Part shown: positions 23,241-33,214 of the stretch, piece after piece
How the letters are laid out: every line of letters starts with the position of its first letter
How positions within the stretch are numbered: position 1 is the first letter of the stretch
Origin: Pannonibacter phragmitetus DSM 14782
GTDB taxonomy: Bacteria > Pseudomonadota > Alphaproteobacteria > Rhizobiales > Stappiaceae
Length of the DNA stretch: 64,000 nucleotides
NCBI RefSeq assembly: GCF_000382365.1
Contig: NZ_KB908215.1
Span: 558,001-622,000, forward strand
Direction: 5' to 3'
The notes under the pieces: generated by a model
Database searches by the model: none
The model's input: the letters and a program-made list of their open reading frames with translations, nothing else
What the model was told of the DNA's origin: nothing
Program-made: the position numbers and the translations under genes

Positions 23241-24899
23241 TCAGGCAGCCAGTTCGCCGCTGAGGGCCTTGGCGATGAGCGCGCGGGTCTCGGCGATGCC
23301 GTAGAGCGCCACGAAGGAGCCGAAGCGCGGGCCCTGTTCGAGGCCCAGCAGCACCTTGTAGAGCGCCTGGAACCAGGCCACCGACACACCGGGACCGCCG
23401 TCCGGGCTCTTCTTCGTCTGGTCTTGATAGCGCTCGATCTTGCGCGCCACATCCAGCACGGCATCCTGAATGGTGTTGCCATCGGCACCGGCCGGCAGGG
23501 CGGCGAGCGATGCATCGAGCGCTTCGAGAGCGGCCCGCTCCACATCGTCCGGCGCACGGAACTGCTTGGACGGCTTCACGAAGTCATCGAAGTAGCGGAT
23601 CGCATAGGTGACCAGTTCATCCAGATTCGGATGGGTGTCCTTGGTCACGCCCGGCGCATAGCGGGTGATGAAGGCCCACAGCACGTCCTTGTTTTCGGCG
23701 TTGGAGGCCGAGACGAGGTTCAGCAGCATGGCAAAAGGCACCGGCGAGCTAGTCGCAGGCACGTTGCCGGAATGGATGTGCCAGGCCGGGTTCATCAGCT
23801 TCTGTTCCGGCGTCATCTCCGCGAACTTGCCCGCAAAGGCGAGATATTCGTCCACGGCACGCGGGATCACGTCGAAGTACAGCTTCTTCGCGGTCTTCGG
23901 CTTCTGGAACATATAGAGCGCAAGGCTCTCCGGGGAGGCATAGGTCAGCCATTCGTCGATGGTCAGGCCGTTGCCCTTGGACTTGGAGATCTTGGAGCCG
24001 TCATCGGCCAGGAACAGTTCGTAGACGAAATGCTCCGGCGGCGTGCCGCCCAGCACTTCGCAGATGCGGTCATAGACCGGCATATTCGGGCCATGGTCCT
24101 TGCCGAACATCTCGAAATCGACGTTGAGCGCGGCCCAGCGGGCGCCGAAGTCCGGCTTCCACTGCAGCTTCACCTTGCCGCCGGTGACCGGCAGGGTCAC
24201 GTCCGTGCCGTCCTCATCCTCAAACGTGATGGTGCCTTCGCGGGCATTCACGTCCTTCATCGGCACGTAGAGCACGCGGCCGGAGATGGGCGAGATCGGC
24301 AGGAACGGGCTGTAGGTGGCTCGGCGCTCTTCGCCGAGCGTCGGCAGCATCACATCCATCAGCTCCTGATACTTCTCGACCGCCTTCAAGAGGATGCCGT
24401 CCAGCTTGCCGGACTTGTAATACTCGGTCGCGCTGGCGAATTCGTACTCGAAGCCAAAGGTGTCGAGGAAGCGGCGCAGCATGGCGTTGTTGTGGTCGCC
24501 AAAGCTCTTGTAGTCCCCGCCGAAGGGGTTCGGCACCACCGTCAGCGGCATCTGCAGATAAGGCTTCAGCGCTTCCTGATCCGGCACGTTTTCCGGAATC
24601 TTGCGCATGCCGTCCATATCGTCGGAGAAGCACAGCAGACGGGTCGGGATCTTGTCTTCGGTGAGGATGCGGAAGGCCGTGCGCACCATGGTCGTGCGCG
24701 CCACCTCGCCGAAGGTGCCGATGTGGGGCAGGCCCGAGGGGCCGTAGCCCGTCTCGAACAGGACCGGGATCGAGGGATCACGTTTCTCGATGCGCTTCAC
24801 CAGTTTGCGGGCTTCCTCGAACGGCCAGGCCTTGGAGGTCCGGGCCGCCTCAACAAAAGCGGGCGACAGGTCAAGCGAAGGGAGGGAACGTTCACTCAT
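23241..24899 (-). CDS. lysK: Lysyl-tRNA synthetase, class I
   Basis: This 552-residue enzyme charges tRNA-Lys. It is the class I (archaeal-like) form typical of alphaproteobacteria rather than the class II LysS. The HIGH-type signature is in [13 protein letters not shown] (about residues 54-66) and the KMSKS-type loop is [11 protein letters not shown] near residue 280. The C-terminal helical anticodon-binding region runs from about 350 onward. The ATG at 24899 ([12 protein letters not shown]) gives the family's normal N-terminus; an upstream in-frame start at 25004 is less likely. It is a single gene, divergent from the TerB-like gene. Confidence 0.95.
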
Positions 24900-25124
24900 A
24901 ATCTCAGATGGTCCGTGATGTTTTCGGGAATCCGGTTCCGTTGCCCGCGTGATCCTGCAGGCGGCCGGAGCGCGGACACTAGAAAAGCCGCGGGCTTGCG
25001 TCAATCAAACTCTGCCTGCGGGACGGCCGCGCAGGCACAAATATTTGCGGCCCTTCTTGAAGGCCGCCTGCCGAAGCATTACCCATTGAGCCTTGAAACT
25101 GTTCAACAGGACCGTGCAGCCACA

Positions 25125-25968: not shown

Positions 25969-26138
25969 AGCCTTCCGGCTCCTCAACAATTCGTGAAGCG
26001 GATCAGGCTGTTGCCGGCTCCGCGTGTCATTTTCAAGATATATAGCGCAGCAACGCACACGAAAAGTGCAAGCGTGAAAATGACTGACAGGATGGGACGC
26101 AAGCAGCACCCCACCCTGTCTTGAAAACCGGCCTGCCT

Positions 26139-27341
26139 TCAGTTCACCGCCGCCAGCGCCCGCTCGATGTCCTCGAGAAGGTCCAGCGGGTCTTCAAGGC
26201 CCACGGACAGGCGCAGCATGCCTTCGGTGATGCCCAGCTCCAGCCGCGCCTCTTCGGCCACGTTCTTGTGCGTGGTCGTGGACGGGTGGGTGATCAGGCT
26301 CTTGGCATCGCCCAGATTGTTGGACAGCTTGATCACTTCCAGCGCATTGGTGAAGGCGAAGGCTGCTGCCTTGCCGCCCTTCAGCTCGAAGGCCAGCATG
26401 GTGGAGCCGCCGCGCATCTGCTTGCGAGCGACAGCGGCCTGCGGATGGTCGTCACGGCCCGGATAGATCAGACGGGCAATGGCAGGGTCACCCGCCATGC
26501 GGTCGGCAATGCGGGCCGCGCTGGAAGACTGCTGGGCAACGCGCAGCGGCAGCGTCTCCAGCCCCTTCAGCAGCACCCAGGCATTGAACGGGCTCATGGC
26601 CGGGCCGGTGTGCTTGACCAGCGGCAGCACCTCTTCCTCGATCCACTTGGCATCGGACAGGACGACACCGCCCAGGCAGCGGCCCTGTCCGTCGATGTGC
26701 TTGGTGGCCGAATAGACCACAACATCGGCGCCCAGCTTCAGCGGCGACTGGAAGATCGGCGTGGCAAAGACGTTGTCGATGATGACGCGGGCGCCAACGG
26801 CATGAGCGATCTCCGCAACGGCGGCGATATCGATCACATCCAGCGTCGGATTGGTCGGGCTCTCAAGGAACACGGCCTTGGTGTTCGCCGTCACTGCAGC
26901 GCGCCACTGATCCAGGTCCGTACCGTCCACCAGCGTGCTGGTCACGCCAAAGCGCGGCAGCAGGGTTTCGACGATATAGCGGCAGGAGCCGAAGAGCGCC
27001 TTTGCGGCAACCACATGATCACCGGCCTTGACGGAAGCCATCAGCGCCAGATTGACGGCGGCCATGCCGCTGGCGGTGCCGATGGCCGCTTCCGCCTCTT
27101 CCAGCTCGCACATGCGCTGCTCGAACATGGCAACGGTGGGGTTGGAATAGCGCGAATAGACATAGCCCGGGTCCTCGCCGTTGAAGCGCGCCTCGGCGGC
27201 TTCTGCGGTGGCGTAGACGAAGCCCTGCGTCAGGAAGATGGCTTCGGATGTCTCGCCATGCTGGGAGCGGATCGTTCCGCCATGAACAAGGCGGGTAGCC
27301 GGACGCAGGGGGCGGGAGGACGGGGTATCGGATGCGCTCAT
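26139..27341 (-). CDS. metZ: O-succinylhomoserine sulfhydrylase
   Basis: This 400-residue PLP enzyme of the Cys/Met metabolism family would make homocysteine from O-succinylhomoserine and sulfide. The PLP lysine is in [13 protein letters not shown], the cofactor phosphate region in [13 protein letters not shown], and an aspartate that pairs with the PLP ring nitrogen lies near [16 protein letters not shown]. The ATG at 27341 has GGAGCGAAG upstream; sequence beyond it is a SAM-II riboswitch leader, not coding. That riboswitch strongly supports a methionine-pathway role. O-acetylhomoserine as the substrate cannot be excluded by sequence alone. Confidence 0.92.
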
Positions 27342-27360
27342 CGGTCTTCGCTCCAGAAAC

Positions 27361-27400
27361 AAAAAACCGGCCATAAAGGCCGGGTGTTTCTCCCCGGCCT
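27361..27400 (-). terminator. Leader terminator with an overlapping alternative hairpin
   Basis: On the minus strand, a hairpin CCGGCC-TTTAT-GGCCGG (27383-27367) is followed directly by TTTTTT (27366-27361), an intrinsic terminator before the metZ start. Its 5' arm also belongs to an 8-bp hairpin with upstream sequence (27400-27393 AGGCCGGG with 27384-27377 CCCGGCCT). The two structures cannot form together. This suggests transcription attenuation controlled by the aptamer just upstream. Confidence 0.7.
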
Positions 27401-27449
27401 CTTTAGCAACTTCTTTAACGTGGCTGCAAGCCGGCCGGCTCAAATCACC
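27401..27449 (-). promoter_or_regulatory. SAM-II riboswitch (metA motif) upstream of metZ
   Basis: The minus strand from 27449 to 27401 contains the invariant SAM-II features. It opens with GGTGATTTGA, has the core CGGCTTGCAGCCACGTTAAA, and ends with GTTGCTAAAG, which forms the pseudoknot with the 5' loop. This class binds S-adenosylmethionine and is found in front of alphaproteobacterial metA, metX and metZ genes. It lies about 60 nt upstream of the metZ ATG. I recognised it by consensus, not by a covariance search. Confidence 0.93.
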
Positions 27450-27614
27450 ACGGATCCTGTCCCGCCAAATACGCCATTCAGGGCCGGTGGTCAATCTTTG
27501 CCAGCCATGGCCCCTCCATGAAAGGGTTGGCCAAGACCCTGCCATCGGCTAATGACAGCGCAGAGGAAGACAACGCCCCTCCCCGGCTCCCCCCGGCTCC
27601 ATGAAAGGCTTGCC

Positions 27615-28709
27615 ATGCGCCCAGACGGCATTCTGCCCGCCCACATGATCGAGGACATGTTCCGCGCCGGAACGATCCGCAGCGAGCTGGCGCCTGTCGA
27701 CGGCCAGATTCAGCCGGCCAGCCTTGACCTGCGCCTCGGGGGGCTGGCCTACCGGGTGCGCGCCAGCTTCCTGCCGGGCAATGGCGTCGCCGTCGCCGAC
27801 AAGCTGGATGCCTTCGCGCTGCATACCATCGACCTGACGCGTGGCGCGGTGCTGGAAACGGGCTGCGTTTATATCGTGCCCTTGCAGGAAAGCCTGACGC
27901 TGCCCGATGCCATCTCGGCAACCGCCAACCCGAAAAGCTCCACCGGGCGGCTTGATGTCTTCACCCGCGTCATCACCGATGGCGGGCGCGCCTTTGACAC
28001 GGTGCCGGCCGGCTACAACGGGCCGCTCTATGCGGAAATCTCGCCGCTCACGTTCCCCATTCTGCTGCGCAGCGGCTCGCGCCTGTCACAGATCCGCTTC
28101 CGTGCCGGTGAGCCGCTGATCCCGGACAGCGAGCTGGAAGGCGTGCATGCGCGCCTGCGCCTTGTCTCCGGCGGCATGGAGCGCATCGGCGGCGGCGTGC
28201 AGCTGTCCATCGATCTGGAAGGCTCCGGCGATGGCAGCCTCGTCGGCTACCGCGCCAAGCACCACACGGGCGTCATCGACGTGGACCTGAAGGATGCGCA
28301 TCACCCGCTCGACTTCTGGGACCCGATCTACCGGCGCGGGGCGGCCGAACTGGTGCTCGACCCGAATGAGTTCTACATCCTCGTCAGCCAGGAGGCGGTG
28401 CATGTGCCGCCGGATTTCGCTGCCGAGATGGTGCCCTTCGATCCGCTGGTGGGAGAATTCCGCGTGCATTACGCCGGTTTCTTCGACCCCGGCTTTGGCC
28501 ACAGCACCGCTGGCGGCACAGGCTCACGCGCCGTGCTGGAGGTGCGCTCGCACGACGTTCCCTTCATTCTGGAGCATGGCCAGACGGTTGGGCGGCTTGT
28601 CTATGAGCACATGGCCGAACGCCCGCACCGGCTCTATGGCGAAGGCATCGGTTCCAACTATCAGGGGCAGGAGCTGAAGCTCTCCAAGCACTTCCGCGCG
28701 CTCAGCTGA
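27615..28709 (+). CDS. dcd: 2'-deoxycytidine 5'-triphosphate deaminase (two-domain type)
   Basis: This 364-residue protein has two dUTPase-like jelly-roll halves, the duplicated form found in many alphaproteobacteria rather than the roughly 190-residue E. coli Dcd. It would convert dCTP to dUTP for dTTP synthesis. The first half contains GQIQPASLDLRLG and the trimer-site block TANPKSSTGRLDVFTRVI. The second half contains GEFRVHYAGFFDPGFG and GRLVYEHMAERP. I chose the ATG at 27615 because GAAAGG lies 6 nt before it; an in-frame start at 27552 is possible. It diverges from metZ, and its end converges with the alpha/beta hydrolase gene. Confidence 0.85.
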   Translation: MRPDGILPAHMIEDMFRAGTIRSELAPVDGQIQPASLDLRLGGLAYRVRASFLPGNGVAVADKLDAFALHTIDLTRGAVLETGCVYIVPLQESLTLPDAISATANPKSSTGRLDVFTRVITDGGRAFDTVPAGYNGPLYAEISPLTFPILLRSGSRLSQIRFRAGEPLIPDSELEGVHARLRLVSGGMERIGGGVQLSIDLEGSGDGSLVGYRAKHHTGVIDVDLKDAHHPLDFWDPIYRRGAAELVLDPNEFYILVSQEAVHVPPDFAAEMVPFDPLVGEFRVHYAGFFDPGFGHSTAGGTGSRAVLEVRSHDVPFILEHGQTVGRLVYEHMAERPHRLYGEGIGSNYQGQELKLSKHFRALS

Positions 28710-28711
28710 TA

Positions 28712-28806
28712 CGGACTCTCACTGAGCCTTACTCATCGAGAGTTGGTCAAGCCCGCGCGGCGCTTGAGCAAATTCAAGGCGTGATGCGTCAGCATCGAAA
28801 GCCTTG
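28712..28806 (-). repeat. Dispersed two-hairpin element, copy A
   Basis: Copy A lies between convergent genes and reads on the minus strand. Hairpin 1 (28804-28775) is AAGGC, then inner GATGC-TGAC-GCATC, then GCCTT. A linker with the family's TTGCTCAAGCGCCGC follows. Hairpin 2 has stem ACTCTC / GAGAGT (28742-28737 with 28719-28714) around the loop GATGAGTAAGGCTC. Confidence 0.85.
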
Positions 28807-33140: not shown

Positions 33141-33214
33141 TGGAGCGGGTAGCGGGAATCGAACCCGCGCGTTCAGCTTGGGAAGCTGACAGGCTACCAT
33201 TACATCATACCCGC
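33141..33214 (-). tRNA. tRNA-Gly (anticodon CCC)
   Basis: Read on the minus strand, the acceptor arms GCGGGTA and TACCCGC pair perfectly. The T arm contains GGTTCGATTCC. The anticodon arm is TCAGC-TTCCCAA-GCTGA, whose loop places CCC after T33. The 3' CCA is encoded (33143-33141). The 74 nt fold as a normal cloverleaf with a short D loop. Confidence 0.95.

Follow-up and report, generated by a model that had tools for sequence, protein, structure and literature searches.

Overall, we believe that the leader of metZ in this Pannonibacter genome carries a SAM-II riboswitch acting as a transcriptional OFF switch for metZ by way of four short strands, A, B, C and D, a reading to which we give a probability of roughly 0.92. 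The layout amounts to one six-base word and its complement, paired as A:B (helix P2 of the aptamer), B:C (an antiterminator) or C:D (a terminator), and strand B (27399-27394), common to P2 and the antiterminator, is the switch. The aptamer match, the strands, their mutually exclusive pairing and the conservation of the layout were all obtained here, and transcription attenuation, which the layout had suggested to an earlier note on this DNA, is the best-supported reading. Throughout, the window is the whole 64-kb stretch of DNA that was analysed. The features of the aptamer and its expression platform are as follows.

27382..27461, minus strand: SAM-II (SAM_alpha, RF00521), a full-length Rfam match whose 3' end extends into the expression platform
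27447..27452, minus strand: P1 5' strand CGUGGU, from the Rfam structure line
27433..27438, minus strand: strand A, CCGGCC, the 5' strand of the P2 pseudoknot inside the P1 loop, complementary to strand B
27419..27424, minus strand: P1 3' strand GCCACG, from the Rfam structure line
27402..27407, minus strand: core GCTAAA, invariant in 13/13 aligned family leaders, where it was also the anchor for parsing, so that its invariance is no independent test
27394..27399, minus strand: strand B, GGCCGG, both P2 3' strand and antiterminator 5' strand, from complementarity and folding
27377..27400, minus strand: antiterminator hairpin B:C (AGGCCGGG / GAGAAACA / CCCGGCCU), predicted at minimum energy both for the 120-nt leader and for a 41-nt segment
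27378..27383, minus strand: strand C, CCGGCC, both antiterminator 3' strand and terminator 5' strand, from folding and a terminator scan
27361..27383, minus strand: predicted intrinsic terminator C:D with its U tract (CCGGCC-UUUAU-GGCCGG-U6), from a terminator scan and folding
27367..27372, minus strand: strand D, GGCCGG, the terminator 3' strand, letters checked
27351..27354, minus strand: Shine-Dalgarno sequence GGAG of metZ, downstream of the terminator, read from the sequence (TGGAG in 12/13 aligned family leaders, TGGGG in L092)

The Rfam model is matched from 27461 to 27382 over positions 1-79 of 79, with 87.2 bits against a cut-off of 36 (E 2.4e-18), and the gene downstream, metZ, is a methionine gene, the context expected of SAM-II; we infer that the site binds SAM. 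The earlier note was right about the identity of the aptamer but not about its limits, both of which cut into it. The 5' limit, 27449, falls inside P1, which is present as six pairs between 27452-27447 and 27424-27419, one of them U-G, with no non-standard pair marked in the Rfam structure line. The 3' limit, 27401, which left the aptamer one nucleotide short of the hairpin, omits the P2 3' strand (27399-27394); aptamer and hairpin in fact share a strand. Since the Rfam structure line omits pseudoknots, P2 has to be recognised in another way: A and B form 6/6 pairs at the metZ leader, and we take A:B to be P2 of the published SAM-II model, an assignment supported here by complementarity and covariation. 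The same note's suggestion that the aptamer's own CCGGCCGGC could compete for pairing caught an element that is indeed involved, but one that is itself the P2 5' strand.

At E <= 0.001 the metZ-leader site is the sole SAM_alpha match in the genome, and at Rfam cut-offs the window holds no other riboswitch, SAM-V included, its only matches being SAM-II and one tRNA. That tRNA gene (33144-33214, minus strand, 62.6 bits) shows what appears to be CCC in the anticodon loop of the Rfam alignment and is perhaps a tRNA-Gly. The window also encodes a lysine--tRNA ligase (23241-25004, minus strand) that matches NF001968 and TIGR00467 (lysS_arch, 155.8 bits against a cut-off of 147.55), and which, from the latter match, we take to be probably of class I. 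A tandem SAM riboswitch was considered and rejected, a second riboswitch being absent from the window at these cut-offs and the SAM-II being single in the genome; in the SAM-II/SAM-V tandems of marine bacteria described in a review (PMC9481103) the SAM-II half likewise precedes an intrinsic terminator, but no SAM-V is found here.

The expression platform proved to be as the earlier note had drawn it. The 8-bp hairpin beside the aptamer is there (27400-27393 / 27384-27377; 9 bp if the G-U pair 27401/27376 is counted), and its 3' arm is common to the terminator CCGGCC-TTTAT-GGCCGG-T6 (27383-27367, with the T tract at 27366-27361). The antiterminator thus excludes both the bound aptamer, with which it shares B, and the terminator, with which it shares C. 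Folded within the 41-nt segment it comes to -19.0 kcal/mol, and its 24-nt core by itself to -16.2; the terminator, with six pairs, all G-C, closing a TTTAT loop, reaches -13.1 kcal/mol, and the short A:B duplex about -11.8 kcal/mol with the loop cost excluded. The 120-nt leader is more stable than 199/200 shuffles (z -3.54) and its best fold contains the antiterminator, which, together with the greater stability of B:C over C:D, makes read-through the ligand-free default. Reserving A and B for P2 turns the best fold into one that contains the terminator. Of 11 lengths of transcript that were folded, the four shortest (ending at 27393, 27388, 27384 and 27380) place B against A, and the other seven, from 27376 on, place it against C. 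Only nested, ligand-free structures were modelled, in which P1 and P2 do not appear together, so that the folds establish that the states are mutually exclusive and not how SAM tips them.

A general course for the switch can be proposed. Consider a nascent leader in a cell with ample SAM. Bound SAM would hold A:B as the P2 pseudoknot and so keep C from pairing with B; C, left free, would form the terminator with D, and RNA polymerase would halt in the U tract near 27361, releasing a leader RNA of about 100 nt, the length that a start near 27460 implies. In a cell short of SAM, the more stable B:C antiterminator would form once C has been transcribed, C:D would be blocked and metZ would be read. 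The steps we infer, from the binding of SAM through the kinetics to an altered termination, draw support from relatives, namely the probing of Agrobacterium tumefaciens metA RNA, whose structure changes with SAM by in-line probing (Corbino 2005, PMC1273637), and the data on Sinorhizobium meliloti metZ. For the latter, Scheuer 2022 (PMC9373788) predicts SAM-dependent termination and reports an RNA of the expected size, about 100 nt, in vivo, where high SAM accompanies more of this RZ RNA and less metZ mRNA; its authors grade the termination step 'most probably'.

Conservation among relatives is a better test of the layout than any count of patterns in the window. Each of 5 genus genomes and of 87 family genomes, the window's own counted, yielded a single SAM-II, with stricter filters, which lose weak matches, applied to searches across more than 40 genomes. 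From 32 of the 87 family sites that were fetched, 27 distinct leaders were obtained, and in 27/27 of them a terminator lies behind the core and B pairs with C over 6 bp or more (shuffled C arms: 0.214 of draws). In the class sample, 190/385 genomes have a SAM-II match. The class leaders are the best-scoring 89 sites listed after the window's own, a choice that may favour well-kept switches, and the parser, a pattern around the core, handled 84 of the 89; the 5 it missed, like 21/80 named metZ loci, were dropped before counting and are not evidence of absence. By a narrowed rule 66 of the 84 parsed class leaders have a terminator and 18 lack one (the rule as first written left 16/84 without one), and in 50/66 the terminator is accompanied by B pairing with C over 6 bp or more (shuffled: 0.218). 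Shuffles of single leaders are weak, giving p < 0.05 for B:C in 18/68 class leaders under the first version of the rule. Some class leaders without a terminator by rule may truly act on translation; in at least one, L142, a terminator escaped the rule, its loop exceeding the permitted length. L142 and L113 are two SAM-II switches in one genome of the same order (G447), and both have GGCCGG behind the core, followed by CCCGGCC. Three further leaders of the class (L165, L177 and L178) have CCCGGCC-TTTT close behind the core and GGCCGGG-TTTT some 30-40 nt later, as if a long insert lay in the terminator loop.

The pairing of A with B was followed across 156 distinct leaders, pooled from the family, the class and the named loci; the rule assigned no terminator strand to 33 of them. 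With G-U allowed and the best register taken for each leader, A and B form 6/6 pairs in 118/156, where 300 random deals of B to other leaders gave 91.3 on average and never more than 102; fully Watson-Crick pairing is seen in 83/156, where the 300 deals averaged 45.8 and peaked at 59. Choosing the register favours pairing, and it was done for the real and the dealt pairs alike; kinship among the leaders means that neither shuffles nor deals yield true probabilities. The A/B words themselves co-vary: in the window the pair is GGCC/GGCC, in many other leaders it is GACC/GGTC, in L157 GGTC/GACC and in L173 AGTC/GACT.

It might still be argued that terminator and antiterminator compete without any coupling to SAM, which would mainly stabilise the RNA while the promoter does the regulating. 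S. meliloti lends this some colour, in that at high SAM its metZ promoter is weaker and its metZ RNAs stabler, so that termination is not the sole possible cause of the changes seen there, and in that PMC9373788 does not predict its metA terminator to be SAM-dependent. In the same report, however, lower metK expression brings RZ RNA down and metZ mRNA up, a response in which termination and stability are not separated. Further, the P2 strand is the antiterminator strand in 27/27 distinct family leaders, and strand B changes in step with strand A across the wider set of leaders; an uncoupled platform is, in our judgement, very improbable.

A second alternative turns on where metZ and its signals lie, which are these.

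27489..27494, minus strand: putative -35 TTGACC (TTGAC invariant in 13/13 aligned family leaders), with a spacer of 17 nt to the putative -10
27466..27471, minus strand: putative -10 TATTTG, weak (TA, 18 nt behind TTGAC, invariant in 13/13 aligned family leaders)
26139..27341, minus strand: metZ, O-succinylhomoserine sulfhydrylase, 400 aa, ATG at 27341, with NF005696 (E 7.3e-214) and TIGR01325 (E 1.4e-166) both above cut-off

The SAM-II lies between metZ and a divergent dCTP deaminase gene (27552-28709, plus strand). By metZ the nearest named relative is Pannonibacter indicus (97% protein identity), whose leader, L006, is identical from P1 through the start codon. The promoter is assigned on conservation in 13 leaders picked from 32; TATTTG agrees at 3/6 bases with what we take to be the -10 consensus, and a generic promoter scan detected none at the putative -35 and -10. 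Corbino 2005 (PMC1273637) places the likely promoter of SAM-II leaders usually a few nucleotides upstream of P1. The metZ frame itself is open upstream across the whole riboswitch to 27545 (26139-27545, minus strand), so that an automatic caller could place the metZ start 68 codons too early. A coding reading of the leader was rejected, as the length differences between the hairpin loops of relatives are not multiples of three (8 and 10 nt, for instance), which argues against coding; NF005696 is matched from model position 4 within the 400-aa form of MetZ, the only form run.

Given this arrangement, it is less probable again that the switch works at the level of translation, with the aptamer masking the Shine-Dalgarno sequence, as in the metX-type SAM-II, where that sequence lies inside P2 (review, PMC10907184), or as predicted for S. 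meliloti metA (PMC9373788). An AGG within strand B (27400-27398) does resemble a Shine-Dalgarno core, the terminator loop contains an AUG (27374) in the metZ frame, and the S. meliloti metA riboswitch offers a precedent in a Shine-Dalgarno sequence serving an AUG 74 nt away (PMC9373788). Against this, that AUG is 23 nt behind the AGG, sits within the terminator and is unconserved (it is absent from L086 and L090, for example), whereas the usual metZ Shine-Dalgarno sequence (27354-27351) is some 40 nt past P2 and downstream of the terminator, as is TGGAG in 12/13 aligned family leaders. Translational control at the metZ site was accordingly rejected, its Shine-Dalgarno sequence lying behind the terminator and not inside P2. 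As an observation in its own right, the in-frame AUG (27374-27372, minus strand), 33 nt upstream of the metZ ATG, brings to mind the pair of AUGs in S. meliloti metA. The earlier note had set this platform against the many SAM-II switches thought to act on translation; this holds for others, metX and by prediction S. meliloti metA, but attenuation is no surprise, terminators having been reported in 2005.

Pattern counts bear on the last alternative. The hairpin pattern, expected 0.01 times in the window, was found at one place (two rows, for the two strands), and the terminator pattern, expected 0.00 times, was found once; both were derived from the site itself, so that the counts speak to rarity and not to function. 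A generic terminator scan of 26100-28800, with 3 found against 1.7 expected, is not selective. We therefore give next to no credence to chance G+C-rich palindromes beside a real aptamer, with a terminator that is constitutive or none at all, for although the strands are near-palindromic and have many alternative pairs, individual shuffles are often non-significant and the generic scan is barely above shuffles, the specific patterns are expected about 0 times in shuffles and, what speaks strongly against chance, the layout recurs among relatives, both in the family and widely in the class.

The transcriptional OFF switch favoured here has close counterparts. Corbino 2005 (PMC1273637) describes putative intrinsic terminators in many SAM-II representatives, and Barrick and Breaker 2007 give the terminator as the commonest SAM-II platform in alpha- and beta-proteobacteria; the metZ leader resembles these in its P1, in a P2 at the expression platform, in a terminator between P2 and the open reading frame, and in its methionine gene, and no difference from them was seen. 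The closest is the S. meliloti metZ SAM-II with its RZ RNA (PMC9373788), alike in gene, aptamer class, predicted SAM-dependent Rho-independent terminator and expected RNA of about 100 nt, a likeness at the level of gene, aptamer and predicted mechanism and not strand by strand, the Pannonibacter switch being known from sequence. In S. meliloti a further SAM-II precedes metA, whereas one was found in the Pannonibacter genome. With the metX SAM-II of the crystal structure the aptamer class is shared, but the Shine-Dalgarno sequence in P2 there (PMC10907184) is replaced here by terminator and antiterminator. A comparative study (PMC4239095), which names metY and metZ apart, finds SAM_alpha before metY in 26/30 genomes of two alpha-proteobacterial lineages, and a literature search on Pannonibacter and riboswitch listed one paper, on chromium in farmland. 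By analogy, the SAM-bound, terminated leader of about 100 nt might accumulate as a long-lived small RNA acting in trans; we think this unlikely, and PMC9373788, where it treats a trans role of RZ RNA, poses it as a question only.

Terminator-type SAM-II switches are common in related bacteria, which makes the find in the metZ leader an ordinary one: the site is an ordinary, well-kept representative of a known kind. In this context, the gain beyond annotation is little, one more clear case of a terminator-type SAM-II; its plain four-strand layout, however small that gain, offers a tidy model for the competition between a pseudoknot aptamer and an antiterminator during transcription.
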